Shown: in pieces, positions 1 through 55,664 of the stretch
Layout of the letters: each line of letters begins with the position of its first letter
Numbering within the stretch: the stretch's first letter is position 1
Assembly: GCA_016183775.1 (NCBI GenBank)
Contig: JACPDY010000022.1
Coordinates: 1 to 57,882, forward strand
Source: Bacteroidota bacterium
GTDB lineage: Bacteria; Bacteroidota; Bacteroidia; JABDFU01
Direction of reading: 5' to 3'
DNA: 57,882 bases
Made by a program: the position numbers and the translations under genes
Notes under the pieces: model-generated
Databases searched by the model: none
Told to the model about the DNA's origin: nothing
What the model saw: only the letters and a program-made list of their open reading frames with translations

Positions 1-1
1 G

Positions 2-1873
2 GGGAATTCCGGAGATGAGACATTGGAGTATCCCGGCTATTATCAGAATGTATTGGGAGTGGCTTCAACTGATGCTGCCGATAAAAAATCGGGGTTCTCG
101 AGTTATAATTATCGTGTCCGGATCTGTGCCCCCGGCAGCTCAATTTATTCCACTTATACCGGCACAAACGGATATTCCACTTTAAGCGGCACATCCATGT
201 CAACTCCATGTGTTGCAGGCGCTGCAGCAGTTGTCCGTTCATATTTTCCCGGCTATAGTGCTTTACAAGCCGCTGCTAGATTGTGTGTTACCGCAGATGA
301 TATTTACGCTCTTAATTCCACTACTTTAAAAAACAAGCTTGGTTCCGGACGTGTAAACCTGTACCGTGCATTAAGTGATCCCGCGATGCCCTCTGTATCG
401 ATGACCACCAGGAATATCACCGATGGAAATGATGACGCTATTGTTGCCAATGATACGGTTAGTGTAACCGGCATTTACACTAACTTTTTGGCTCCCACAA
501 CCAATCTTACCGCAACCCTTTCAATTGTTGCCGGAACAGGGGCTGTAACCCTGCTAACCACCGGCCCGATAACCCTGGGAGCAATCCCAACTTTAGGAAC
601 CGCGAACAACAACAGCATCCCCTTTAAGATCCGGATCAAACCAACAGCCGGATTAAACACTGCCGTTACCTGCAAGATAACTTATAACGATGGCACATAC
701 ACATCATTTGAAACATTTGAGATCGTAGTGAATGTTGATTACCTGAATGTAACGGTGAATGACATTGCCACATCTGTTACCAGCAAAGGCATGGACGGCT
801 GGAACAACAGCCCTCCCTCACAGGGACTGGGCTTCAAATACGGCGGAACCAACCTGATGTATGATGCCGGATTTATGATCGGGGTTCCTGATTCAGCCGT
901 ATCTGATGTGATCAGGGGAATGGCAGGCACTCCGGACAAAGATTTTAACTCTGTGGTCAATATTAAGCGAATAATAACAGGGGCCATTTCCGATTTCGAC
1001 ACAGAAGGCCTGATGAATGATGCAGCCGCGTTTAAACCATTAAATGTACTTATACGTCATAAGTCATATGCGTGGTCAACCCCGGCAGATAAGAAATATA
1101 TAATGTATAAATACATTATTAAAAACAACGGAAGTTCTACCCTGAGTAACATGTATGCCGGCATTGCTGCCGACTGGGATATACAGGGTGTCGGAGGCGA
1201 CAGCAACAAAACTTCGTTTGACGCTGGTACGAAAATGGGCTACACGTATTATACCAAAGCAAACGGTTATTACGCAGGCATAAAATTACTGAGCAAAACA
1301 GCTCCGGTAAATGCATACGCCTTCGATAACATTGACGGTGGCACAGGCATCAACCCCAATGCGGGCTTTAGCAATAAGGAAAAGTACATCGGGTTATCGA
1401 CCATGCGCACGGATGCAGGCTTGATCAAACCTCCCGGGAATGATGTATTGAGCCTGGTAAGCACAGGTCCGATCACCCTACCCATCGGCGACAGTGTTGA
1501 AGTGGCTTTTGCACTGATAGCCGGTGATAACCTGGCGGATCTGAAAACCAGCGCCATCAATGCGCAAATAAAGTACGATCTGTTCACTTCTGTTCCTTCA
1601 ACTCATCCATCGGATTCTTACTCTTTACGATCATATCCTAACCCTTCGTCAGGAAATACAACTATTGAAGTTAATTTGCCACAATCCGGGCGCATGGAAC
1701 TTAAATTGTATAATATGATTGGCCAGGATATCACTATTATAGCGGCGGGCGAATTTACATCGGGCAGGCACCAGTTCAATTTAGATGCATCGAGGCTTAA
1801 CAGCGGAGTTTATTATTACCGGCTTATTGCGGGTGATAATAAAATTGTACGTAAACTTGTTGTTTCAAAATAA
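2..1873 (+). CDS. Subtilisin-like S8 serine protease with T9SS sorting domain (5' partial)
   Basis: The reading frame is open to the window edge. Codons before the first possible start (TTG at 23) read GNSGDET, matching the AAAGN-GDE stretch of the two paralogues downstream, so this is the 3' part of a longer gene and not a gene starting at 23. The catalytic Ser lies in GTSMSTPCVAGAAA (Ser codon 194-196). The Asp and His parts of the triad are outside the window. After the protease domain come beta-rich repeats and a last segment of about 80 residues with YPNPSSG and ending KLVVSK, a type A T9SS C-terminal domain. It is therefore expected to be exported by Sec, moved across the outer membrane by T9SS and anchored or released there. 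It is first of three tandem paralogues on the same strand, with a 54-nt gap to the second. The substrate is unknown. Confidence 0.9.
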   Translation, partial: GNSGDETLEYPGYYQNVLGVASTDAADKKSGFSSYNYRVRICAPGSSIYSTYTGTNGYSTLSGTSMSTPCVAGAAAVVRSYFPGYSALQAAARLCVTADDIYALNSTTLKNKLGSGRVNLYRALSDPAMPSVSMTTRNITDGNDDAIVANDTVSVTGIYTNFLAPTTNLTATLSIVAGTGAVTLLTTGPITLGAIPTLGTANNNSIPFKIRIKPTAGLNTAVTCKITYNDGTYTSFETFEIVVNVDYLNVTVNDIATSVTSKGMDGWNNSPPSQGLGFKYGGTNLMYDAGFMIGVPDSAVSDVIRGMAGTPDKDFNSVVNIKRIITGAISDFDTEGLMNDAAAFKPLNVLIRHKSYAWSTPADKKYIMYKYIIKNNGSSTLSNMYAGIAADWDIQGVGGDSNKTSFDAGTKMGYTYYTKANGYYAGIKLLSKTAPVNAYAFDNIDGGTGINPNAGFSNKEKYIGLSTMRTDAGLIKPPGNDVLSLVSTGPITLPIGDSVEVAFALIAGDNLADLKTSAINAQIKYDLFTSVPSTHPSDSYSLRSYPNPSSGNTTIEVNLPQSGRMELKLYNMIGQDITIIAAGEFTSGRHQFNLDASRLNSGVYYYRLIAGDNKIVRKLVVSK

Positions 1874-1927: not shown

Positions 1928-4658
1928 ATGAATAAACACTACAAGTTTGCTACGGCTGCGGCGTTTGCAGCGGTCTTCATATTTACCGGCGCTGCCGCTC
2001 AGTACAACCTGAAGTCAACAACCCCACGCTACGAAATTGCTGCCGATGCCCGTGATGGCCAGGACTACATGAGCAAAGCCATCATTTTTAAAATGAAGCC
2101 TCAATACCGCTCCCTGTGCACAACTGAGGACGTTAATTACGCTCCGCTTAAAGCGCTTATGCAGCAAATGGGTGTTCAATGGTTCGGCAAAATATACCCC
2201 AACGAAGAACAGCCTATCCGGCCATATAATGGAAGAGGCGAAAAACTGGTTGACCTTTCATTAATGTATGAATATGTTTATACAGGCGAATTGTCATTAC
2301 AACAGGCACTGGATAAAGTTGCCTCTTTGGGTGTTTTTGAATATACCCAACCATCCTGATCTGAAAAATAACATCAAGCATAATTATGCTGACCCGATCG
2401 GTGGAGGTGATAACGACGGAGACGGGTATATAGATAATTTCAGCGGATGGGATGTGGGAACATCTGTTTTTGGGGGAAGTAATGGAGACAATGATCCTAC
2501 CTGGCAGGGTGATGCACATGGCGTACATGTTAGCGGTATCGCCGCTGCTTCAACCGATAATAGTACGGGTATTGCAGGCGTTGGTTTTAAATGCAAATTC
2601 ATGCCTGTTAAAATTGCTGATGCTACAGGTAAACTTACTTATTCCTATACAGGTATACAATATGCTGCTGCTCATGGCTGCAAAGTGATTAGTTGTTCAT
2701 GGGGCGGTACAGGAGGCGGTCAATACGGACAGGACATTATTAATTTTGCAACTTTCAATAACAATGCGTTGGTTATTGCAGCTGCCGGAAATGACGGAGA
2801 TGAAAGAATATATTACCCTGCGTATTATATGAATGTGATGGGTGTGGCCAACACCACATCAACCGACGTCAAGAACAGCACATCAAATTATAATTACCGT
2901 GTTCGCATTTGCGCCCCTGGAACTTCCATTTATTCCACATATAGTGGCACCTCATATACTTCACTTACCGGCACCTCAATGTCAGCTCCTTGTGTTGCAG
3001 GTGCCGCCGCAGTTGTCCGTTCACATTTTCCAACTTATTCGGCATTACAAACTGCTGCCCGTTTATGCGTTACAGCCGATAATATTTATTCTCCAATCAA
3101 TTCATCTACTTTAAATAATAAGCTTGGATCAGGACGCGTAAACCTATACCGTGCCGTGAATGATCCGGCCATGCCTTCAATATTAATGACCACCCGGAAT
3201 ATGACCGATGGGAATGATGACGCTTTTGTAATAAACGATACAGTTAAGGTAACGGGTATTTACACTAATTATTTAGCTCCTACTACAAACCTTACCGCTA
3301 CAATGACGATAGTCGCAGGCACAGGAGCTGTTACCTTGCTCACTACCGGAGCTATCCCATTGGGCGTAATTTCAACTATGGGAACCGGAAATAACAACAG
3401 CACTCCTTTCAAGATCCGAATTAAACCCACTGCCGGATTAAACACTACAATTACATGTAAAATAACCTATAACGACGGTACATACACGTCATTTGAAACA
3501 TTTGATATTGTTGTGAATGTTGATTACCTGAATGTATATGAAAATGATATTTCAACATCGGTAACCAGCAAAGGAATGCAGGGCTGGAACAACAGTCCTC
3601 CTACACAAGGCCTGGGTTTTAAATATAATGGAGTTAACCTTATGTACGATGGCGGATTTTTGATCGGCGTGCCCGACTCTTCTGTATCTGACGTACTCAG
3701 GGGCATGGCAGGTACCCCTGACAAAGATTTTAATTCAGTAGTTAATATTAAGCGCGTAATGACAGGTGCTATTTCCGACTTTGATACAGAAGGCCTGATG
3801 AATGATGCAGCGGCGTTAAAACCGTTAAATGTACTTATACGTCATAAATCATTTGCCTGGTCAACCCCGGCAGATAAGAAATACATCATGTATAAGTATA
3901 TCATTAAGAATAACGGAACATCTACTTTAAGTAATTTATTTGCAGGCATTGGTGCCGATTGGGATATACAGGGTGTTGGAGGTGACAGCAACAAAACATC
4001 ATATGATGCAGGTACCCGAATGGCCTATACTTATTATACGAAGGCGAGTGGGTATTATGCGGGTATAAAATTATTGAGCCATACTGCCCCTGTAAATGCC
4101 TATGCCTTTGACAATATTGATGGAGGAACAGGCATCAATCCGAACGCCGGATTCAGCAATCTCGAAAAATACGCCGGTCTTTCAACCATGCGCACAGATG
4201 CCGGTTTAATTAAACCTCCAGGGAATGATGTATTGAGTATGGTAAGTACAGGACCAATTACCTTACCTGTCGGCGACAGTGTTGAAGTGGCTTTTGCACT
4301 GCTTGCGGGCGATAACCTGGCGGATATAAAAACCAGCGCGAATAATGCTCAAATAAAGTATGATCTGTTTACTTCAGCTCCTTCAACCCAGGCATCGGAT
4401 TCATACTCTTTACGATCGTATCCGAATCCTTCATCAGGGAACACAACTATTGACGTTAATTTGCCACAATCCGGGCGTATGGAACTTAAATTGTATAATA
4501 TGATCGGTCAGGATATCGTCACTATCGCAGTAGGTGAATTTACATCGGGCAGGCACCAGTTCAATTTAGATGTTTCCAGGCTTAACAGCGGAATTTATTA
4601 TTACCAGCTTATCGCGGGAGATAATAAAATTGTACGCAAATTAGTGGTTTCAAAGTAG
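1928..4658 (+). pseudogene. Disrupted subtilisin-like S8 protease with T9SS domain (deletion/frameshift)
   Basis: The first part (1928-2359) encodes a signal peptide and propeptide region almost identical to the intact copy at 4974, then stops at TGA 2357. The same protein resumes in another frame just upstream of 2360 and runs to 4658. Lined up with the intact copy, about 155 nt are missing at 2345 (equivalent to about 5391-5545). The loss is not a multiple of three, so it shifts the frame, and it removes the segment carrying the catalytic Asp (VDTG motif). The His (HGVHVSG, codon 2517) and Ser (GTSMSAPC, codon 2976) segments and the C-terminal sorting domain (YPNPSSG...KLVVSK) are intact. 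In the intact copy the hexamer gagcct occurs at both edges of the missing segment, so slippage between short repeats is a plausible cause. The 3' part has internal starts but no signal peptide, so export as a working enzyme is unlikely. An assembly error is the alternative. Confidence 0.85.
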
Positions 4659-4782
4659 AATTGACCAATAATGATTTAAGTCTTATTCTACAGACCATCG
4701 TAGTAGTTTTTATTGATATCCAATCCTATGTACTCATTGGATATTTATGACCCAAAGGCCCGTTTCCCCTTTTTTGATTGAA

Positions 4783-4824
4783 CCTGTCAAAGCCCTTCTC
4801 ATTTCGGAGAAGAGCTTTGACAGG
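4783..4824. terminator. Long hairpin between subtilase copies 2 and 3
   Basis: An 11-bp perfect stem (4783-4793 with 4814-4824) continues inward after one mismatch for six more pairs around a 6-nt loop (4801-4806). It sits 125 nt after the stop of copy 2 and 150 nt before the start of copy 3. There is only a weak T-rich tail (tatctttaat), so it may be an intrinsic terminator or an mRNA-stabilising stem. It implies that copy 3 has its own promoter. Confidence 0.6.
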
Positions 4825-4973
4825 TATCTTTAATACCTCCCATATAGGTTCATCTACAAACTTATTCATTTATTGACCCCTAATGATCTATAATAATTGA
4901 TTAGTTTATTGGAAGATGGATGGCGAAATTTGGTACACAAATACCTTTAACACCATTTCAAAAACCATCTCTC

Positions 4974-7832
4974 ATGAATAAATACCACCAAATTAATATG
5001 GTTGCTGCGTTTGCAGCAATATCAATGTTTACCGACGTTACTGCTCAGTATAATATTAAGTCCGCCACCCCCCGTTTTGAACTTCCCGTCAATATGCGTG
5101 ATGGTGAAGATTATATAAGCAAAACGATCATTTTTAAAATGAAACCACAATACCGCTCCCTATGCACGATCGAGGACATTAATTATACTCCGTTAAAGTC
5201 AGTTATGATGCAAATGGGTGTCCGGTCGTTCAGTAAAATATATCCAAATGAAGAGCCCCCGATCAGACCATATAATGCCATGGGTGAAAAACTGGTTGAC
5301 CTTTCATTAATGTATGAATATGTTTATACAAGCGAATTATCGTTACAACAGGCACTGGATAAAATCGCAGCATTGGGCGTTTTTGAATATGTCGAGCCTC
5401 ATGTTATTCCGAAGTTATTATACAATGTAAATGACCCATCAGCCTCAAGCCAGTATCACATCGCAAAGATCAGCGCGCCCCAGGCATGGAATATATCAAA
5501 AGGTGATACAAATGTGGTTATTGGAATTGTTGATACCGGAACAGAGCCTAACCATCCCGATCTGAAAAACAACATAAAACACAATTATGCCGATAAAATT
5601 GACGGGATTGATAATGACGCAGACGGATATATTGATAATTTTAGCGGATGGGATATAGGTATGGGCGATAATGATCCCACGTGGCAAAGCGAGCCGCATG
5701 GCGTGCATGTTAGCGGTATAGCCGCTGCCTCAACCGATAATAGTACGGGTATTGCAGGTGTTGGATTTAAATGCAAATTTTTACCCGTTAAAGTGTCTGA
5801 CGCGTCAGGAAAATTGACAGGTACCTACATTGGCATACAATATGCCGCCGCACATGGCTGTAAGGTAATCAGCTGTTCCTGGGGAGGGACTGGTGGTCAA
5901 TACGGACAGGACATTGTAAATTACGCAACCATAAATAAGGACGCTTTGGTAGTGGCGGCTGCCGGAAATACCGGAGATGAAGCATTACTTTATCCTGCAT
6001 ATTATCCGAATGCACTGGGTGTAGCCGGAACTACATCAAGCGACACTAAAGCAGCTTTTTCAAGTTATAATTATCGTGTTCGTATCTGTGCCCCCGGTGC
6101 CTCTATTTATTCCACCTACAGTGGCGGCTCATACGTTTCAATGAGTGGAACATCCATGTCCACGCCATGCATTGCGGGTGCGGCTGCAGTTGTTCGTTCG
6201 TATTTTCCAGGCTATTCGGCGTTACAAACTGCCGCACGCCTATGTGTTACTGCCGATGATATTTACGCGCTTAATTCTTCCGCATTAAAAAATAAACTTG
6301 GCTCGGGGCGTGTAAATCTATATCGTGCATTAAATGATCCGGCAATGCCTTCGATATCAATGACTACCCGAAAAATGACAGATGGAAATGATGATGCCTT
6401 TGTGATAAATGACACGGTTAGCGTAACCGGCATTTACACCAATTTTTTGGCTCCTACAAACAATCTTACCGCCACTCTGTCAATTGTGGCCGGAACAGGT
6501 GCCGTTACACTACTAACTGCCGGACCTGTAAATTTGGGAGCAATTCCAACTTTGGGAACCGGAAACAATAACGGTCTTCCTTTCAAAATCAAGATAAAAC
6601 CAACTTCCGGATTAAATACGGTAGTTACATGTAAAATAACTTACAGTGACGGCATATACACTTCATTTGAAACATTCGACATTGTGGTAAATGTTGATTA
6701 TCTGAACGTATATGAAAATGATATATCTACATCTATTACCAGTAAAGGCATGAACGGCTGGAATAACAGTCCTCCGACTCAGGGTTTGGGGTTTAAATAT
6801 AATGGAGTTAACCTCATGTATGATGCCGGCTTAATGATCGGAGTTCCGGATTCAGCTGTATCGGATGTGATACGTGGAATGACCGGTATCAGCGATAAAG
6901 ATTTCAAATCGAGGGTTAATATAAAAAGAATAACAACGGGTGCTTTATCTGATTTTGATACGGATGGCTATATGAGCGATAGCCTGGCCCTTAAACCATT
7001 GTGGGTGGGTATCCATCATAAATCGTATGCATGGTCAACCCCGGCAGATAGGAAATATATAATGTATAAATACATTATTAAAAACAACGGAGTTTCTACT
7101 TTGAACAACCTTTTTGCCGGAATCGCGGCCGATTGGGATATACAAGGTGCGGGGGGTGATAGCAACAGAACATCTTATGATAATGTTAACAGGATGGGCT
7201 ACACTTACTATACGAAAGCCAATGGCTATTATGCCGGTATAAAATTATTAAGCTATTCGGCTCCTGCCAGTGCCTATGCGTTTGACAATATTGATGGTGG
7301 AACCGGGATAAACCCTAACGCGGGTTTCAGTAACCTCAAAAAATATACAGGGCTTTCAACCATGCGTACCGATGCAGGCCTGATTAAACCGCCAGGAAAT
7401 GATGTAATGAGTCTGGTAAGCACCGGGCCTATCATGTTACCTCCAGGCGATAGTGTTGAAGTGGCTTTTGCACTGCTTGCGGGGGACAATTTAGCTGACC
7501 TGAAAACCAGCGCGAATAATGCTCAAATAAAGTATGATCTGTTGACCGCCGCCCCTGATTTGAGATCAATAAAGGAATATAACTTGCGGTCATATCCTAC
7601 CCCTGCTTCGGGTACTACAACTATTGACATTAATTTGCCAAAGGCCGGGCGTGTGGAACTTAAATTGTATAATATGATCGGTCAGGATATCGCCACTATC
7701 GCAGCAGGTGAATTTACATCGGGCAAACACCAGTTCAATTTAGATGTTTCCAGGCTTAACAGCGGGGTTTATTATTACCAGCTTATTGCAGGCGACACTA
7801 AAATTGTACGTAAAATGGTGGTATCAAAGTAA
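4974..7832 (+). CDS. Subtilisin-like S8 serine protease with T9SS sorting domain (intact copy)
   Basis: This is the complete member of the trio, 952 residues from the chosen ATG. The ATG at 4974 was preferred over one at 4920 because it gives MNKYHQ plus a hydrophobic signal peptide (about residues 1-24, ...DVTAQ) and matches the start of copy 2 (MNKHYK). The propeptide region (about 25-130) is followed by the S8 domain. The triad is visible: Asp187 in GIVDTGT, His242 in HGVHVSG and Ser394 in GTSMSTPC. A beta-rich middle region follows, and a T9SS C-terminal domain of about 80 residues ends KMVVSK. Its first motif is YPTPASG where the paralogues have YPNPSSG, a slight degeneration. It probably acts as a secreted or cell-surface endopeptidase. 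The calcium and substrate specificity cannot be told from sequence. A rho-independent terminator follows at once. Confidence 0.93.
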   Translation: MNKYHQINMVAAFAAISMFTDVTAQYNIKSATPRFELPVNMRDGEDYISKTIIFKMKPQYRSLCTIEDINYTPLKSVMMQMGVRSFSKIYPNEEPPIRPYNAMGEKLVDLSLMYEYVYTSELSLQQALDKIAALGVFEYVEPHVIPKLLYNVNDPSASSQYHIAKISAPQAWNISKGDTNVVIGIVDTGTEPNHPDLKNNIKHNYADKIDGIDNDADGYIDNFSGWDIGMGDNDPTWQSEPHGVHVSGIAAASTDNSTGIAGVGFKCKFLPVKVSDASGKLTGTYIGIQYAAAHGCKVISCSWGGTGGQYGQDIVNYATINKDALVVAAAGNTGDEALLYPAYYPNALGVAGTTSSDTKAAFSSYNYRVRICAPGASIYSTYSGGSYVSMSGTSMSTPCIAGAAAVVRSYFPGYSALQTAARLCVTADDIYALNSSALKNKLGSGRVNLYRALNDPAMPSISMTTRKMTDGNDDAFVINDTVSVTGIYTNFLAPTNNLTATLSIVAGTGAVTLLTAGPVNLGAIPTLGTGNNNGLPFKIKIKPTSGLNTVVTCKITYSDGIYTSFETFDIVVNVDYLNVYENDISTSITSKGMNGWNNSPPTQGLGFKYNGVNLMYDAGLMIGVPDSAVSDVIRGMTGISDKDFKSRVNIKRITTGALSDFDTDGYMSDSLALKPLWVGIHHKSYAWSTPADRKYIMYKYIIKNNGVSTLNNLFAGIAADWDIQGAGGDSNRTSYDNVNRMGYTYYTKANGYYAGIKLLSYSAPASAYAFDNIDGGTGINPNAGFSNLKKYTGLSTMRTDAGLIKPPGNDVMSLVSTGPIMLPPGDSVEVAFALLAGDNLADLKTSANNAQIKYDLLTAAPDLRSIKEYNLRSYPTPASGTTTIDINLPKAGRVELKLYNMIGQDIATIAAGEFTSGKHQFNLDVSRLNSGVYYYQLIAGDTKIVRKMVVSK

Positions 7833-7969: not shown

Positions 7970-8518
7970 ATGGATTTAAGCGGTATTATTTCGATTGCAG
8001 GAATGAGCGGGCTATACAAAGTAGTTGCTCAAACAAAAAACGGGTTGATCGTTGAATCGATCGTTGAAAAAAAACGGGTTCCCACTTATTCTACCCAGCG
8101 TATAAGCGCATTGGAAGATATCAGCATTTTTACCACAGGTGAAGATATGCCCCTTAAAGATGTCCTGAAAAAAATTTCGGATAAATTAACAGGAGGATTT
8201 GCCCTTGATCATAAAGCGGCTGATGACGCATTGAAAGCTTTTTTTGCTGAGGCTGTGCCCGAATATGACAAAGAGAGGGTATATATTTCCGATATCCGAA
8301 AAGTGATTAATTGGTACAATGTTCTTCAAAAGAATGATCTTCTTAAAGAAAAGGCAAATAGCAATGATGCTGATCCCGAAAAAACAAAAGTAAAAATTGC
8401 AGCCGAGGAAAAAGCGAAAACATACAGCAAACCTGTAGTTAAAGACTCTATGTCCAAACCCCTGAAAACGGCAGCACCAAAGAAAACCCAAACCACAAGA
8501 AAAACCGGTGCCGCATAG
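7970..8518 (+). CDS. DUF5606-type conserved Bacteroidota protein
   Basis: 182 residues. The N-terminal stretch of about 75 residues (LSGII.I.G..GLYKVVAQTKNG, then SALEDISIFT) is the pattern I recognise as the small DUF5606 domain, conserved in Bacteroidota and of unknown function. The middle is helical and charged. The tail from about residue 130 is a Lys/Thr/Ala-rich, probably disordered extension (SKPLKTAAPKKTQTT). There is no signal peptide or membrane segment, so it should be cytoplasmic. Such basic tails often contact nucleic acid, but that is only a guess. The next gene starts 29 nt downstream, so co-transcription with the M3 peptidase is likely. Confidence 0.8.
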   Translation: MDLSGIISIAGMSGLYKVVAQTKNGLIVESIVEKKRVPTYSTQRISALEDISIFTTGEDMPLKDVLKKISDKLTGGFALDHKAADDALKAFFAEAVPEYDKERVYISDIRKVINWYNVLQKNDLLKEKANSNDADPEKTKVKIAAEEKAKTYSKPVVKDSMSKPLKTAAPKKTQTTRKTGAA

Positions 8519-32901: not shown

Positions 32902-35052
32902 CTAATCCAACAAAATAAACTTTTTTACAGCAATATTTTTATTATCAATATTCAGGCGGATGAAATACATTCCCTTAGCTACACTTTGCTTACTTATTTT
33001 ATACGCATAATCCCCATCATCCTGCATTTGATCTACCAGCGTTTTTACTTTGTTTCCTAAAATGTCATAAAGGCTTAACTCAACATCCTGCTTTTGATCG
33101 ATGTGATAAGTGATGGTAGCTGATTCATTGGCCGGATTCGGGTATACCGAAAGTGAATTAACAGAATTCTCATTTTCAATAACTCCAACTTTGCGATCCG
33201 CACTGATATTTATATCATCAATATATAAATTGTTTGAATAAGGGCTACTGTTATATTGAAATTTAAACCGGATATTACCTTTCGCAATTGACGGAGACAA
33301 TAGCACACTCTTTATCTTCCACAATGATGCATTATTGGGTACGTAGGACGTGCTGACACTTCCGCCAGTAAGGAACGACGCACCACTCAGAGTTGTATCT
33401 AATGTCCAGTTTTTCCCACAATTAGAGGAGAAATATATTTTAAGAGATTCTGTTATGTCAGCCGATTTAAAGGCCTTTGTCGCATAAGAATACCAGAAAT
33501 TAAGGTATATCGGATTAACTCCTGTTAAATCAATTGAAGGAGTTATAAATTCATCTACATCGCCGGAACCACTGCTGAAAGGGAAATTAGGATACCCACT
33601 CGGGAAGAATGAATTAAGCATAATTGATTTTGAACCTGAATGTGAAGCTGTGTTTGTCAATTGCCAGCTGGAAGAGTTGTTGATATCAACCGGCTGATTA
33701 ATAACAAACCAATCTGAATCAAACTCGGCGGCATTTTCAAAATCTTCAACAATTGTACCTGTGCGCTGGCTTGCAACAGGATCACTGATAAATACCTGTT
33801 TGGTAACTGTTTTTGTATCCGATCCATTTGTATTTGAAACAGTAAGACTGACTGTTTGCCAGCCTGTAGTGTTAAATACAACACTTTCATTTTGCAGGGT
33901 TGAAGTGGATGGAGTTGCGTTACTAAATGTCCATGTACGGTTATCAACCTGGCCATTCCAGGATACATCATAAAAAAGGAAATTAACCCCGCTGCAGCCA
34001 TAATTTCCGAACGAATAAAAATCGGCTATGGGGGCACAGGTCGTAGTAACAGAACCATCAACCCCTGTAGCAGCTAAGTTGGCAGGTGTCCACAAATTAC
34101 TTCTTCCGGCCACAGAGCTGTTTAATGTTGCTTCCATTGCAGCCTGTTGGCCAAGTGTAAACATTTTTCCGCAATAGGAGTAATCCATATAATTTTCTAC
34201 ATTTTCTTTTATCCCTATAGTACAAATATCCGTAATAGATGGACAAGTTGTAAATCCTTTTGTTATAGGAGTGTCACTGATTCCATCATCACCACATGTC
34301 ACACCTGCCGTTTCTCCGGAGGAGTTCCAGGGATGAAATAAACTTAACCAGTGCCCTATTTCGTGGGTTAATGTTCTTGATTTATAAGCACTTGAAGTAC
34401 CAATGCTTCCAACATAATCACTTAGCGACATAACTCCATCTAATGGGCCGTAAAAACCATCCGAAGAAGTCGGAAACTGAGCATATGCAGCAGCACCTGG
34501 CCTATCTTTAAGCACAGCGGCGGTCCATATGTTAAGGTATTTTTCTTTAGGCCATGCATTAAGTTTCGCGGCACTACCTCCAGCATAAGTTTGCAACGAT
34601 TGAATCCGCTCTATCCCATTTGTACATTTTCCATCAGGATCTTTTTTCGCAAGGCGGAACTCAAATTGGCAATTTGCAATTAACGGCTTAAATTCAGCTT
34701 GAACAGTGGCTGTATCAGCATTCAGCTTTTGAAAATCACGGTTAATAACGGCTATCGCGTCATTGATCTGCGCGTCAGAAATATTCTCAGCCCCATAATT
34801 GTGAATAACATGGAATACAACCGGAATTATATATTTAGCAACAGAAGATGTTTTGGCAGCAGCGCGTTTCTGAGCAAAATCAGCCTGATATTTCTGAAAC
34901 TCTTCCATTTGCTTCAGGAGCTCCGGGTGTTCCTTTATTTGCTTCTCAAGTAATTCAGAAGTACCGCATGGATTAATATTCTGAGAATGTACAATGCCAA
35001 CATTTAAACAAAATGCAACACTTACAGCAGCAAAAAGCAACTTTGATTTCAT
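32902..35052 (-). CDS. M43 (pappalysin/cytophagalysin) family secreted metalloprotease with PKD and T9SS domains
   Basis: 716 residues. Signal peptide about 1-23, propeptide, then catalytic domain. The zinc site is HEIGHWLSLFH (His230, Glu231, His234, His240), with the Met-turn ENYMDYSYC later. Family members normally have Gly two residues after the Trp (HWLGL); here it is Ser, an unusual substitution in an otherwise complete site. Cys residues around TCGDDGISDTP and CPSITDIC fit the disulfides of the family. A PKD-like domain follows at about 340-430, a jelly-roll-like segment at about 430-620, and a T9SS C-terminal domain (SVYPNPANES...KKFILLD). It should be a secreted endopeptidase. Confidence 0.92.
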   Translation of the reverse strand: MKSKLLFAAVSVAFCLNVGIVHSQNINPCGTSELLEKQIKEHPELLKQMEEFQKYQADFAQKRAAAKTSSVAKYIIPVVFHVIHNYGAENISDAQINDAIAVINRDFQKLNADTATVQAEFKPLIANCQFEFRLAKKDPDGKCTNGIERIQSLQTYAGGSAAKLNAWPKEKYLNIWTAAVLKDRPGAAAYAQFPTSSDGFYGPLDGVMSLSDYVGSIGTSSAYKSRTLTHEIGHWLSLFHPWNSSGETAGVTCGDDGISDTPITKGFTTCPSITDICTIGIKENVENYMDYSYCGKMFTLGQQAAMEATLNSSVAGRSNLWTPANLAATGVDGSVTTTCAPIADFYSFGNYGCSGVNFLFYDVSWNGQVDNRTWTFSNATPSTSTLQNESVVFNTTGWQTVSLTVSNTNGSDTKTVTKQVFISDPVASQRTGTIVEDFENAAEFDSDWFVINQPVDINNSSSWQLTNTASHSGSKSIMLNSFFPSGYPNFPFSSGSGDVDEFITPSIDLTGVNPIYLNFWYSYATKAFKSADITESLKIYFSSNCGKNWTLDTTLSGASFLTGGSVSTSYVPNNASLWKIKSVLLSPSIAKGNIRFKFQYNSSPYSNNLYIDDINISADRKVGVIENENSVNSLSVYPNPANESATITYHIDQKQDVELSLYDILGNKVKTLVDQMQDDGDYAYKISKQSVAKGMYFIRLNIDNKNIAVKKFILLD

Positions 35053-46877: not shown

Positions 46878-49667
46878 TCACGGTGCGGTGAGGTTAACAT
46901 TTACGCTGCACCCGCTCTTGTCTGTCACTTTTACGTTATATGCTCCCGGACACAGCCCATTCCGGTACCGTTTGTCGTACCCATCGGGCCATTGGTAGCT
47001 GTAGGGCTCTGTTCCATCTTTGCCGGTTACCATTATCCATTCTTTGCAGCCGTTCGTTTTGCAATCGGGACAATTGGAAGTACCTTTTACAAATTGGGCA
47101 TTTAAGTTACATGTTGAGCAAAGCGATATAACTACATTAATAAGCTTCTCCGCGCTATCGCAAGCTGTTTTGGCCTTGAGGGTTACTGTATAAGTGCCGG
47201 GCGATGGGTATACAATACCGGTGGGATTTTGCGCAGTTGAATTTGAAGGGGTGGCTCCGGGGAAACTCCATAAATAACTTGCCGTGTTACTTTCGCAGCT
47301 AACGGAAAAATTACCGGTAAAATTCAATGGCGTATTATTGCACAGGCTGCCGGTGGGCACTGTGGCCGACAAGGCAGTGGTTTTATCAAAGCCACAGCTG
47401 CTTTTATACAACTGCGCTACAAAAGCATCCAAACCTCCTCTATAAACTGTTTGATGCGCGCCCGGTGTAACAGGGTAGGAACCTCCGGTATACCCTGTCA
47501 TATAAACGTAGCAGCCGTGTAGAGCAATACTGCAATATTCATCATCAGACGTTCCAGGTCCTCCCACATAAGAAGAACAGACTATTTTACCATCGGGTTT
47601 GAAATGCGCGACAAAACTATCTTCGGAAATTCCACCGGCCAGATTTTTTTGCCAGGCACAGGAAGTTATAGGGAAATTCAGGCTGTAAGTATCGCCCGAC
47701 ACAAACACATCATTGTTGTCAGGATCCACAACGAGTGATAAACCGTAATCAACGGAGGCTCCCCCTAAATATGTGGCCCATACGCGGAGGCCAGAGGAAG
47801 TAAATTTTACTAGAAAAGCATCTTCCCCACCACCAAGTACATTTTGAAAACCACCTGAAGCAATACCTGTTACACTATTTGTCCGGCCAGACAGATATAT
47901 TATATTTCCGGCTCCATCAACATCTGTGCTATGGCCACTATCATCGCCTGTTCCTCCATAGTAAGTCGCCCAAACTCTATTACCCCCCGGATCGAATTTG
48001 ACTAGGAAGGCATCCGATAGACCACGAAGTACATTCTGGAAGCCACCTGAAGCAATACCTGTTACACTAGCTGTCAGTCCTGCCAGATACACATTGCCGG
48101 TCACATCTATAGCAACACTCCTTCCATCGTCGTATCCGGATCCTCCATAGTATGTAGCCCATATCCTTGCACCCCCCGGATCGAATTTAACTAGAAAAGC
48201 ATCTCCATCACCATCGCCATATAAATTCTGAAAGCCACCCGAAGCAATATTGGTTGAGCCTCTTGTTAAGCCTGCCAGATACACGTTTCCAGCTCCATCA
48301 GCGGTAACGCCATAACCATAATCAAAGCCAATTCCTCCATAGTAAGTTGCCCAAATTCTACTACCCCCCGAATTAAACTTAACCAGAAAGGCATCATAAT
48401 TACCACCAAATACATTCTGAAAGCCACCTGAAGCAATACCAACTATACTACCCGCACCCGCAGATCCTGTAAGATAGGCATTGCCAACTCTATCAACTGC
48501 AACACTATAGCCTGCATCGGCTCCGGCTCCCCCGTAGTAGGTTGCCCAGATTCTACTGCCTCCCGAATTAAACTTGACCAGAAAGGCATCATAACTACCA
48601 CCAAATACATTCTGAAAGCCCAATGAAGTTATTTGGGATGTGCTGCCGGTCTGCCCAGTTACATACACATTGCCAGTTTCGTCAGTGGTAATGTCTGCTC
48701 CCATATCGAAACCTGTTCCACCATAATAAGTAACCCAGGGATCGATGATTAAAGGGTGTTCCGGGCTCCAGGTTCCAAGTTCAAAAGTTACAAGCCCTTC
48801 TCCGACTCTCCCCTTCGGGGAGAGAGTTAAATTGTAGTTAGCTTTTACATCAATAATTTTTCCATTTATGTTTTGGTAAACTTTGGGCAGGGTTTCGGTA
48901 AATTCGTTTACGCCGGTTTTAATTACCAAAGTTCCTTCATGATTTATGCTTATGTGATCGGCACCTTTCCATCGGAACTTTATTTGATGAGGGTCGGCTC
49001 CGGGGTGTACGATGATGTCGTACTTCAACCCTCCCTCTTTTCCTCCAAAGTATTTTATGTCGATACCTTTGTAAATATTGCTTTGTGTTACGCTGTTATA
49101 GGAGTAAACATTTGTTATTCCCTGCGGGCAGTGCGCGTAATAATAATTAGTATATCCTTCGGCCTGCTCATTGCCTGTCGCTTCCGAATACAGGTTGGCT
49201 CTTTCGAAATCCATATCCAGTCGATGAACTTTCAGCAATGCTTTACTTAGTAACTCCTCTTTTAGTTTTTGCTTTTTGTCTTCGGATATTTTTTCGGCCT
49301 TCTCTTTTTCCTCCACTTCCTCTTCTATCCCATGCATCACTTCGGCCATATTGCTTTGCACATAACTTATTCCTGTTTTACGTATGTATACGTCCGCTCC
49401 TTCAGTTGCTCCTTTGAATAATATGTCGGGGCGCAGTTTACCTTTCATATCGGCTATTTGTCCTTTATTGGGGGTAAAGCTCATGCCCGAACCCCGAAGT
49501 GAGTGCGGGTTATCTGTTGCCAGCGGAACGGCTTGTGAATTTTGCGCGCGAAAATCAGTGCTTGCAAAAATAATTAAGACAGTGCTTGTGCAAAATTGGA
49601 TTAACCAATCTGCGCTGAAAGTGCGGAGGTTTGAAAACGCGAGAATAAAACTCTCACCCGATGTCAT
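46878..49667 (-). CDS. Large exported SBBP beta-propeller protein with PKD and SprB-like C-terminus (copy A)
   Basis: 929 residues from the ATG at 49667; a TTG at 49688, preceded by GGGAGGG, would add seven residues. A membrane/signal segment (about 30-43, IQFCTSTVLIIFAS) precedes FRAQN. Residues about 60-310: GMSFTPNKGQI domain, a Glu/Lys-rich coil (EEEVEEKEKAEK) and beta strands up to HPLIIDPW. Then seven SBBP units of about 60 residues, each opening WATYYGG and containing GNVYL(A/T)G, a likely seven-bladed propeller. Then a PKD-like domain and a Cys-rich SprB-like repeat ending SGCSVNVNLTAP. No T9SS C-terminal domain is seen after it. Paralogue of the gene at 52727. Surface adhesion is a guess. 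Confidence 0.85.
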   Translation of the reverse strand: MTSGESFILAFSNLRTFSADWLIQFCTSTVLIIFASTDFRAQNSQAVPLATDNPHSLRGSGMSFTPNKGQIADMKGKLRPDILFKGATEGADVYIRKTGISYVQSNMAEVMHGIEEEVEEKEKAEKISEDKKQKLKEELLSKALLKVHRLDMDFERANLYSEATGNEQAEGYTNYYYAHCPQGITNVYSYNSVTQSNIYKGIDIKYFGGKEGGLKYDIIVHPGADPHQIKFRWKGADHISINHEGTLVIKTGVNEFTETLPKVYQNINGKIIDVKANYNLTLSPKGRVGEGLVTFELGTWSPEHPLIIDPWVTYYGGTGFDMGADITTDETGNVYVTGQTGSTSQITSLGFQNVFGGSYDAFLVKFNSGGSRIWATYYGGAGADAGYSVAVDRVGNAYLTGSAGAGSIVGIASGGFQNVFGGNYDAFLVKFNSGGSRIWATYYGGIGFDYGYGVTADGAGNVYLAGLTRGSTNIASGGFQNLYGDGDGDAFLVKFDPGGARIWATYYGGSGYDDGRSVAIDVTGNVYLAGLTASVTGIASGGFQNVLRGLSDAFLVKFDPGGNRVWATYYGGTGDDSGHSTDVDGAGNIIYLSGRTNSVTGIASGGFQNVLGGGEDAFLVKFTSSGLRVWATYLGGASVDYGLSLVVDPDNNDVFVSGDTYSLNFPITSCAWQKNLAGGISEDSFVAHFKPDGKIVCSSYVGGPGTSDDEYCSIALHGCYVYMTGYTGGSYPVTPGAHQTVYRGGLDAFVAQLYKSSCGFDKTTALSATVPTGSLCNNTPLNFTGNFSVSCESNTASYLWSFPGATPSNSTAQNPTGIVYPSPGTYTVTLKAKTACDSAEKLINVVISLCSTCNLNAQFVKGTSNCPDCKTNGCKEWIMVTGKDGTEPYSYQWPDGYDKRYRNGLCPGAYNVKVTDKSGCSVNVNLTAP
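47700..48760 (-). repeat. In-gene DNA repeats of the SBBP propeller units
   Basis: The blade-coding units are near copies at DNA level. Phrases such as tacattctgaaagccacctg and ccatagtaagt.gccca recur about every 180 nt, strongest between 47800 and 48620. Slippage or recombination could change blade number. Confidence 0.75.
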
Positions 49668-49710
49668 GAAAAATATTTGACGTTTCAATATAACCCTCCC
49701 ATTTTAAACA
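49500..49710 (-). repeat. 5' block shared with the SBBP gene copy B
   Basis: This stretch is nearly identical to 55445-55664: the first 50 or so codons of the gene plus about 22 nt of noncoding leader. The identity continues up to a few bases short of the stop codon of the gene upstream in each case, then ends. Confidence 0.8.
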
Positions 49711-49715
49711 GTTGC

Positions 49716-52658
49716 TTAGTGTTGTATAATAATCATTTTCCGCATATCGCCTGCAAGTTCATCAATCAGTTTTAGGATATACATCCCCGATTGGACATTG
49801 GTTAAGTTAAGGGTAGATTTGCCGTCGATAATATCGCCGTTGCATAACACTTTACCATCGATAGTGAACACTTCATATTTAGCGTTTTGACCAACATCTT
49901 TCATTGTTAACTCACATATACCTGTCGATGGATTCGGGAACACGTTGAACAATGACAAATTATTATTCGTAATCTTCGAAATAGATGTAACGGCATCCGT
50001 AGTAATGGTGACTGTGTCTGAAATAACGTTAACTCCACAATTACTTGTGGTAATGCAACGATATAAGTGAGTACCAACAGAAAGACCATTAATCACTAAG
50101 TTTTCCGTTGCCTGAGTATTGTTATAAGCTGCTCCTGTAGGAATGTTGTCGTCCACGTCAATCCATGTTCCGGATAGCTGGTATTGCCATTTGTACGTAG
50201 CAACGTTGGTTGCTTCGACAGAAACATAAGCTTTGGCGCCAACTGGAATACTAGACGATACCGGTTGTGTAATAATTGATGGAGGCGCATTAATTTTTGC
50301 TATCACATCCACTCTTGCACTCGTGTTTCCAAATACGGTTTGGCTAACATAATAATGTTGGTTATTTACTAAAACAGTAGCTAAATTGGTATACTGGTTT
50401 CCATTGGTTAACGAATCCCACCATTTAATTTCAGTTCCGTTTGCCATTAAATCGGCAATAGTGGCTCCTGTGCATAGGTATTGTTTAAAACTGGCTGTAG
50501 GTAATCCAATACGATGAAAGACGTTCATGTTTTTATCATACGCAACAGTATAAGTTGATGTTCCTTGGACTTCTTTTAAATTAAAGCAGCCTGAAGCTAT
50601 TTGCGATGATTTAATTGTTGAAACAAACACATTTGTACTGGTATTCACTTCAACCAATCCGCGGTTATTTACAATATTAATGTTCCCTGATAGACAAAAA
50701 AGTCTCACATTGTCCGAATTGCTAATAGACAGCGGAAGTGCCTGGCCATCGGAAGCGTTGGCTTCCGACTTTAAATAGTATATTTCAACATCGGATGAAT
50801 TTTTAATCTCGAATTGTATAGTGCTGTAAATTCTTTCTGAATTATATGCATAGAAACGAATTGGTTCTTTTGTATTATCAATTTTGACGGCTCTGTAATT
50901 CGCATTTCCCGTAATTTTTTTTATTGCATTATTTTCGGCAGTAAAGCCGTAAAAATGACCTCCTGCAGTGCTGCCTGAAAGTTTTAACAAATGATGATCT
51001 ATCGATCCAATAGTTGTAGAAGAAAGGGTGGCGCCAATCATTACGTCCCGAATCATTGAATTACGGCCTGCTAACCAGGTAATACGACTCATATCCTGGT
51101 ATATATCGGGGTCTGTTTCGAGCATAAGAAACGACATACTTGTTGTAGCACCTGCATCGGCAACTGTAGTAATCATTGTTTTGTTTGTTGGAGAATTCCA
51201 AGAACTGGTAACAGGTCTAATTACAGTGTAGGTTTTCCCTGCACCTAACAATTGGGTATTGCTTCCTAAAACAAGGGGTTGGCTAATGTAGTATGTTCCT
51301 TTAGGTAGAAAAACTTTATTGTAAGAGTTTATCACATCTTGTAATTTCTGATAATCGTCGGAAGCATCATTAGCTTTAATAACTCCACCAAAAGCAGCCA
51401 TCTTTGCAACATCATTTACAACATCAATAAAATCGGGATCATTTGCATTCTCAATTGATATAAAATCAGATGAATCCCAGACAATGTGCTTACCGGTGAT
51501 TGTGGCAGCTACCGGTTGGGGCACATTATCTGTTTTCGCCAGGTGGTAGGTATTGGCTCCTATGGTTTGTCCGTCAATCAGGCAGGCTCCATTTGTACCG
51601 GTATACCGATAATCTAAAACCTGGGTCCAATTAATCGGAATTAATGCTGATCCTGTACTGCCGGAAACAATGAAATTACATTTTTTAAAATACACATTTT
51701 TGATGTACAGATTATTTGCCGGAACAGGAAGTGCGTATGATGCGGTTGATCCGGTATATTCAATAATTCCATCGACAAGACTAATACCACCAGCTGTTGG
51801 CCATGATGTGATAACCGGGTCGGTGTTTGCTTTTTTAAAACTGAAGCCGGTTATTAGTATTGGGCGTTGAGTTCTTTGCGAGGGATTAATTCTGATTATT
51901 TCGGCAGTCTGATCAGTACAGGTTATACCAACCAATGTAACAAACCTCGATTCATCATCATAAAGATCCCATGCATGCTGTCCCCCAATCACCTCCACAT
52001 TGTATGTTCCTCCTCCCTGGCCAGGAGCACCTAAAAACCCTGAGTAAGCATTAGTTGCTGTAACTTTAACATCTTCAATGGTTGATCCCTGTGCTCCTAC
52101 GAAATCAAGTCCAACCGCCCCTGTGTTTGTGCTGCCATTCAAATCTAAGTCAATGTTTCTGAACACCAAATTAAACGCAATATTCGATCGATATATATTA
52201 TCGGATTTAGAATAAGCGCTAATTAAAAACATTGGTTTGGGATTTGCAGGATCGTTGAAACCACTTGAATTCGCTTTTAAAGTAATCGTTGGACGCGGAT
52301 TAGCTCCAACAATATAAACGGGCTCTCTTCTATCAGTAGTGTAGTCATTCACATTCGTATTCCATGTCATTGGCATTAAGCCTTCAATGGTGCTGTTAAT
52401 GATGTAATTGCCGGATGGGAAGTAACAAACAAGCTTGTTTGCTTGTGCATCACTTACTGCCGTTTGAATTGCAGCGGTAGCTATAGTGATATCTGTATTG
52501 TGTACATCGTATAAACTCACGTCCAAATATCCTTTTTTGTAAAAGGCATTTGCACTTATTCCTGCGGGCAAAGTAGCATAAGAGTATAAACACGCAGAGA
52601 CGAATAATAAAACGACAAATTTAAATTTGTGAATCATTGAATTAGATAGAGTTTCCAT
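49716..52658 (-). CDS. Secreted right-handed beta-helix (pectate-lyase-like) protein with T9SS domain
   Basis: 980 residues from the ATG at 52658 (alternatives at 52700 and 52637). Signal peptide ends near ACLYSYA. Two parallel beta-helix regions: the first (about 35-350) opens with YDVHNTDITIATAAIQTAVSDA and YFPSGNYII; the second (about 430-720) with DASDDYQKLQDVINSYNKVFLPKGTYYI, both classic starts of pectate_lyase_3/GH28-type helices. An Ig-like domain follows (about 800-890) and then a T9SS C-terminal domain (FNVFPNPSTG...KMIIIQH). It probably binds or cuts a polysaccharide at the surface. Catalytic residues cannot be assigned by eye. It sits between the two SBBP paralogues, 27-48 nt from copy A. 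Confidence 0.85.
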   Translation of the reverse strand: METLSNSMIHKFKFVVLLFVSACLYSYATLPAGISANAFYKKGYLDVSLYDVHNTDITIATAAIQTAVSDAQANKLVCYFPSGNYIINSTIEGLMPMTWNTNVNDYTTDRREPVYIVGANPRPTITLKANSSGFNDPANPKPMFLISAYSKSDNIYRSNIAFNLVFRNIDLDLNGSTNTGAVGLDFVGAQGSTIEDVKVTATNAYSGFLGAPGQGGGTYNVEVIGGQHAWDLYDDESRFVTLVGITCTDQTAEIIRINPSQRTQRPILITGFSFKKANTDPVITSWPTAGGISLVDGIIEYTGSTASYALPVPANNLYIKNVYFKKCNFIVSGSTGSALIPINWTQVLDYRYTGTNGACLIDGQTIGANTYHLAKTDNVPQPVAATITGKHIVWDSSDFISIENANDPDFIDVVNDVAKMAAFGGVIKANDASDDYQKLQDVINSYNKVFLPKGTYYISQPLVLGSNTQLLGAGKTYTVIRPVTSSWNSPTNKTMITTVADAGATTSMSFLMLETDPDIYQDMSRITWLAGRNSMIRDVMIGATLSSTTIGSIDHHLLKLSGSTAGGHFYGFTAENNAIKKITGNANYRAVKIDNTKEPIRFYAYNSERIYSTIQFEIKNSSDVEIYYLKSEANASDGQALPLSISNSDNVRLFCLSGNINIVNNRGLVEVNTSTNVFVSTIKSSQIASGCFNLKEVQGTSTYTVAYDKNMNVFHRIGLPTASFKQYLCTGATIADLMANGTEIKWWDSLTNGNQYTNLATVLVNNQHYYVSQTVFGNTSARVDVIAKINAPPSIITQPVSSSIPVGAKAYVSVEATNVATYKWQYQLSGTWIDVDDNIPTGAAYNNTQATENLVINGLSVGTHLYRCITTSNCGVNVISDTVTITTDAVTSISKITNNNLSLFNVFPNPSTGICELTMKDVGQNAKYEVFTIDGKVLCNGDIIDGKSTLNLTNVQSGMYILKLIDELAGDMRKMIIIQH

Positions 52659-52726
52659 AGGTTTTGTTTTAATTAGGTTTTGTTTTTTTATAGTTGCCAT
52701 GTTGTTGTTTTCATTGATGCGGTTTA

Positions 52727-55621: not shown

Positions 55622-55664
55622 GAAAAATATTTGACGTTTCAATATAACCCTCCCATTTTAAACA
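55445..55664 (-). repeat. 5' block shared with the SBBP gene copy A
   Basis: Counterpart of 49500-49710. Both copies contain GGGAGGG five nt before a TTG and then the ATG 21 nt later. Confidence 0.8.

Follow-up and report, generated by a model that had tools for sequence, protein, structure and literature searches.

A deletion has probably inactivated the middle copy of a tandem T9SS subtilase array in a Bacteroidota bacterium

Results and discussion

Three subtilase genes lie in tandem at the contig start

The window, i.e. the whole stretch of DNA that was analyzed, is the 57,882-nt contig C22 of an uncultured Bacteroidota bacterium whose genome comprises 4.54 Mb in 164 contigs. At the start of this contig three S8 subtilase genes lie in tandem on the + strand, all with S8 and T9SS sorting domains, and the initial annotation was thus right in placing the gene of interest in the middle of three tandem subtilases. 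An HSDR_N-type protein and a putative holA-like gene are found upstream of the array, and a DUF5606 protein and a putative M3-like peptidase downstream of it. The genes of the locus are:

C82:1-1119, - strand: copy 1, 5' part, on a separate contig with an exact 124-nt overlap with C22
1-1873, + strand: copy 1, 3' two thirds, with Ser, oxyanion Asn and sorting domain
1928-4658, + strand: copy 2
4974-7832, + strand: copy 3, intact subtilase of 952 aa from the ATG at 4974; the longest ORF begins at 4920
7970-8518, + strand: right neighbour of the locus, a conserved DUF5606/DUF6852 protein

The same neighbours recur around a single intact subtilase copy in genomes G001 and G005, and the upstream neighbours also adjoin two subtilase copies in G003. 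G003 belongs to the same genus and has two or more copies in tandem at this locus (L013 859-4765), the second being cut by the contig end. Promoter and terminator scans gave no telling excess over shuffled sequences, and a plasmid search with the protein (506 records) yielded distant S8 matches only, none covering 80% of the query.

Copy 1 forms a complete ORF of 955 aa once C82 is joined over the exact 124-nt overlap. Copies 1 and 3 both carry a signal-peptide-like start, a propeptide, an S8 domain and a sorting domain, together with the complete catalytic triad in the motifs VDTG, HGVH and GTSM (read across C82 and C22 for copy 1). By sequence, the closest solved structure to the catalytic domain of copy 3 is thermitase (1thm); the structure model of copy 3 was poor (mean pLDDT 45.6) and was used only for the agreement of propeptide elements. 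The genes on each side of copy 2 had been described as intact near-copies: intact they are, copy 1 once C82 is added, but near-copies they are not, the nucleotide identity between copies being only 76-78%. It is within copy 1 that C22 and C82 are separated, and the overlap (window 1-124 and L032 1-124) is of the kind expected from a branching assembly graph.

Loss of 155 nt shifts the frame of copy 2 and removes its catalytic Asp

Alignment of copies 2 and 3 in this one assembly revealed a single gap of 155 nt in copy 2, the two genes being otherwise largely co-linear. The features around this gap are as follows:

2344/2345, + strand: junction of the deletion in copy 2, where 155 nt are absent relative to copy 3 in the alignment
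5391-5545, + strand: copy 3 counterpart of the missing piece, with the Asp codon at 5532-5534 (VDTG)
1928-2359, + strand: copy 2 ORF A, 143 aa, signal-peptide-like start and propeptide, ending at TGA 2357-2359
2268-4658, + strand: copy 2 ORF B of 796 aa, read in the shifted frame; homology to copy 3 begins at about 2345
2346-3134, + strand: remnant S8 domain in ORF B, Asp missing (PF00082)
4419-4649, + strand: copy 2 T9SS type A sorting domain (PF18962, residues 718-794; TIGR04183)

The missing piece comprises the last part of the propeptide, the linker and the beginning of the catalytic domain, including its Asp. Since 155 is not divisible by three, the reading frame changes at the junction: ORF A runs into TGA 2357-2359, and ORF B continues to 4658. 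PF00082 matches residues 27-289 of ORF B over profile positions 15-288 of 288 (E 4.9e-38), and the His codon (2517-2519, HGVH) and the Ser codon (2976-2978, GTSMSAP) can be read from the sequence; a complete Asp-His-Ser triad in one frame is absent from copy 2, its Asp segment lying in the missing 155 nt. The alignment with copy 3, the ORFs and the Pfam matches therefore bear out the earlier description of copy 2, in which about 155 nt are absent, the frame is shifted and VDTG is gone while His, Ser and the sorting domain are still open. Within copy 2, a signal-peptide-like start, as judged by eye, is found on ORF A only and the sorting domain on ORF B, in which no such start was seen. Without a signal-peptide-like start and without the Asp, ORF B would be neither exported nor active, and ORF A would at most give rise to a secreted propeptide. 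Programmed frameshifting as a rescue of copy 2 was rejected, because no frame provides the lost Asp segment. A whole-genome search detected the missing piece in copies 1 and 3 only, and the idea of an excised or movable cassette was rejected on this ground.

The initial annotation had noted GAGCCT at both edges of the missing piece in the intact paralogue. The pair is indeed present in copy 3:

5394-5399, + strand: first GAGCCT of copy 3, starting 3 nt inside the missing piece
5544-5549, + strand: second GAGCCT of copy 3, 150 nt from the first and straddling the right edge of the missing piece

However, the two motifs lie only near the edges, and their spacing is 150 rather than 155. Copy 1 carries GAACCT and GAACCC at these places, so that the exact pair is not kept, and copy 2 has neither GAGCCT left. 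A loss between the two motifs would have preserved both the frame and one GAGCCT; given that neither is preserved in copy 2, slippage or repeat-mediated loss at this pair was rejected as the cause of the deletion. Other short homology may have been present at the deletion in the ancestral copy 2 sequence.

Comparable breaks are rare among the homologues listed

A query with the propeptide only matched 155 of 395 class genomes, and the 150 matches listed were counted by hand. Open frames of less than 500 aa occurred in 7 of them, six running into contig ends and the seventh being copy 2; no other internal break was found among these 150 matches listed in the survey of 395 class genomes. Of 9 loci obtained by scanning contigs of named genomes, one, L057, showed a comparable break. 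L057 (JAIOQD010000524.1) comes from a Lake Pavin MAG and carries, at 3596-5549, a subtilase of roughly 50% identity in which 116 nt of the Asp segment are missing relative to the intact, 90%-identical L079, with a frameshift and a 2-nt AC microhomology. The end points of its deletion differ from those in copy 2, and the corresponding TGA ends the ORF A of L057. A search of its genome found no intact second copy, which makes L057 unfit as a case of a repairable silent copy.

In the order of G024, 24 of 25 matches were intact, the exception being L057's own contig; with this count and with no other internal break among the 150 matches listed, a recurrent deletion hotspot or a programmed loss was rejected. 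The deletions in copy 2 and L057 are both 3n+2 long and share the same boundary; the two breaks are unrelated, and the shared boundary is an unexplained coincidence. Our literature search found no description of a broken copy in a T9SS subtilase array.

Copy 2 is probably old, and its break is probably recent

Pairwise comparison of copies 1-3 gave pS values of 0.60-0.64, dS values of 1.2-1.4 and dN/dS values of 0.09-0.105, while copy 2 and its closest relative in G002, a genome of the same genus, differ with a dS of 0.86 and a dN/dS of 0.048 over 417 codons. For five flanking genes, the dS between this genome and G002 ranges from 0.51 to 1.18. Taken together with the divergence between the copies, these values place the tandem duplications probably before the split from the G002 species. 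The dN on the copy 2 branch was 0.0095 (95% interval 0.0038-0.0164) when copy 1 served as outgroup; with copy 3 in that role it was 0.0288 (0.0159-0.0437). The 770 codons past the junction are free of stops, although 293 of 6930 single changes would create one; assuming equal rates and ignoring indels, this bounds neutral change since the break at about 0.03 per site. The ORFs, the dN/dS values and the stop-free run thus agree with the original reading of a short internal deletion that took the catalytic Asp and left the remainder of copy 2 undecayed. Copy 2 carries this deletion with its effect on the frame, is flanked by intact copies, and was under purifying selection until recently.

The low dN/dS and the 770 stop-free codons indicate that the break is recent or else an artefact of assembly or strain. 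In the latter case most of the population would have an intact copy 2, and the contig would show a minority allele or a misjoin. The absence of further decay in copy 2 would fit such an artefact, as would the fragmented assembly of 164 contigs with its break inside copy 1 at the exact 124-nt overlap, which shows that the assembler struggled in this region. The other case, L057, likewise comes from a MAG, and many purported bacterial pseudogenes are assembly errors, according to the available text of one report (PMC11017572). However, the window contains 0 N, copies 2 and 3 differ at several positions in the 60 nt preceding the junction, and the junction is not flanked by an exact repeat over which a k-mer assembler could have skipped 155 nt; the longest exact matches between the two copies within 600 nt have 45 nt (at 2240) and 29 nt (at 2550). 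As far as the accessible part of a Salmonella study goes, the spontaneous rearrangements confirmed there all had short repeats at their ends (PMC3411829), which makes the absence of a clear repeat at copy 2 mildly odd and keeps the artefact alive as an explanation. On balance, we consider a minority allele or misjoin unlikely.

Sequence exchange between copies and the reversibility of the break

The initial annotation had suggested that copy 2 may be a reversible silent copy, which gene conversion could restore. For such a switch, of which the break would be one state, copy 1 or 3 would have to serve as donor. A mosaic runs test was significant for all sites (p 0.0002) and for third positions only (p 0.002), and codon sharing between copies is in excess in two tracts:

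2219-2344, + strand: tract up to the junction in which copies 2 and 3 share codons in excess, 30/36 (columns 100-141)
4443-4610, + strand: tract of excess codon sharing with copy 3 7617-7784, in the sorting domain, 46/47 (columns 927-982)

In columns 100-141, the top region for copies 2 and 3 outside the sorting domain, these copies use the same codon for 30 of 36 shared amino acids, as against 16/33 and 16/29 for the pairs with copy 1; the Fisher p of 0.0005 is too favourable, because the region was picked after the data had been seen. For copies 1 and 3, the top sharing window starts at column 188, just right of the deletion. In columns 927-982 the corresponding figure for copies 2 and 3 is 46 of 47 codons, compared with 35 of 48 for copy 2 and its G002 relative (Fisher p 0.0008). 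Several amino acids differ between copy 2 4443-4610 and copy 3 7617-7784, and codon choice there looks more conserved than the protein.

The mosaic signal and the two tracts are what a silent copy repaired by its neighbours would offer in its favour, and they make past sequence exchange between the copies plausible. Recent conversion is nevertheless doubtful, because it would have erased the amino-acid differences that persist in both tracts. Break-point tests at third positions were weak (p 0.02 to 0.67). The third-position patterns are close to an even three-way split (160:142:163), which also speaks against a silent copy. Nucleotide identity between the copies is 76-78% and their synonymous divergence is nearly saturated, with differences at about 60% of synonymous sites. 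No more than 600 nt from the junction, copies 2 and 3 share exact matches of at least 20 nt at 2240 (45 nt), 2297 (21 nt), 2550 (29 nt) and 2718 (21 nt), and the run of 45 nt is the longest exact copy 2/copy 3 match. In addition, only one copy is broken, it has its own start codon, there is no cassette of the missing piece, and no recombinant was observed in this single assembly. None of these observations demonstrates reversibility, and we regard a reversible silent copy as highly improbable.

The pilE/pilS system is characterized by silent cassettes that are without a start and highly identical to their donor. In contrast, the present locus has no cassettes without a start, identity between its copies is low, and long stretches of high identity to a donor of the pilS type are not found. 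What the locus does have in common with the Neisseria system, as presented in the available parts of the sources, is related copies close together and possible past exchange (PMC12871193, PMC3899283).

ORF A is predicted to end where the propeptide fold ends

In the AlphaFold model of ORF A, strands span residues 50-56, 83-88, 113-118 and 137-142 and helices residues 58-63, 72-81 and 124-132, with block-mean pLDDT values of 82-92 beyond residue 50 (propeptide 50-142). The model depicts a beta-alpha-beta domain with the same order of elements as the copy 3 model, and ORF A is predicted to stop at the last strand of the propeptide. A fold search returned generic ferredoxin-like matches in the PDB, and the VIA list was generic as well (best Z 7.3); no clear subtilase prodomain match was found for this fold, a site-one protease chain ranking 36th with an E of 0.27. 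A Pfam search of ORF A gave no match. PF16361 (Peptidase_S8_N) matched 3 of the 10 members of set A3, with a best E of 0.00049, and the profile of set A3 gave one chance-level match among PDB sequences (E 0.16).

The end of ORF A coincides almost exactly with that of the propeptide fold, all strands of which are modelled, and intact target proteases are encoded next to it. This raises the idea that the break made something new: ORF A would be secreted as a propeptide in its own right and would act on the copy 1 and copy 3 subtilases as an inhibitor or a chaperone. Plasmodium offers a precedent in SUB1-ProM, described in the available text as a stand-alone propeptide-like inhibitor encoded beside subtilisin-like genes (PMC6993865), which makes an effect of ORF A on copies 1 and 3 in trans conceivable. 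In both cases a propeptide-only ORF lies beside subtilase genes; SUB1-ProM, however, is conserved and tested according to the same text (PMC6993865), whereas ORF A is a recent remnant with a putative inhibitory activity. Apart from the unrelated event in L057, no surveyed relative keeps such an ORF, the break is too recent to show selection, the fold matches are generic only, and ORF B is likewise still undecayed, which a propeptide role leaves unexplained. Such a role for ORF A is therefore very unlikely. If ORF A did inhibit its sisters, it would illustrate a one-step origin of stand-alone protease inhibitors from their own enzymes. The broader version of this idea, in which the deletion released a secreted, folded propeptide that regulates two intact sisters in trans and L057 is a second such birth, is slightly less likely still.

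Copy 2 as a recently inactivated member of the array

We conclude that copy 2 is likely an ordinary gene copy that was inactivated recently, within a tandem array of T9SS-exported S8 subtilases that is itself old. The event would have been a single illegitimate deletion of about 155 nt, with hardly any homology, if any, visible at the junction. Through it the propeptide would have lost its end and the catalytic domain its first part, including the catalytic Asp; the linker would have gone as well, and the frame would have shifted. The cell appears to tolerate the loss of one of its three copies. In support of a fresh pseudogene, the flanking copies are intact, dN/dS is low, such breaks are rare among the matches listed, and the single copies of G001 and G005 are intact; counted against it are the contig break inside copy 1, the coincidence with L057 and the two codon-sharing tracts. 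The ORF A remnant is the only mildly intriguing part of this otherwise ordinary fresh pseudogene. A fresh pseudogene is of limited importance outside the genome that carries it; it suggests that this Bacteroidia genus can do without any single one of its old tandem subtilase copies.

T9SS subtilases have been studied in Bergeyella cardium, whose SpBcA and SpBcB resemble the present proteins, as the available text has it, in being paralogous S8/CTD proteins in one genome (PMC11982257). Unlike these, copy 2 is without the Asp and an intact frame, and a tandem array does not appear in the accessible part of the report on Bergeyella cardium (PMC11982257). Elsewhere in the window, an M43 peptidase with a T9SS sorting domain is encoded at 32902-35052, and a pectate-lyase-like T9SS protein lies between two DUF7948/SBBP/PKD proteins on the minus strand at 46878-55642.
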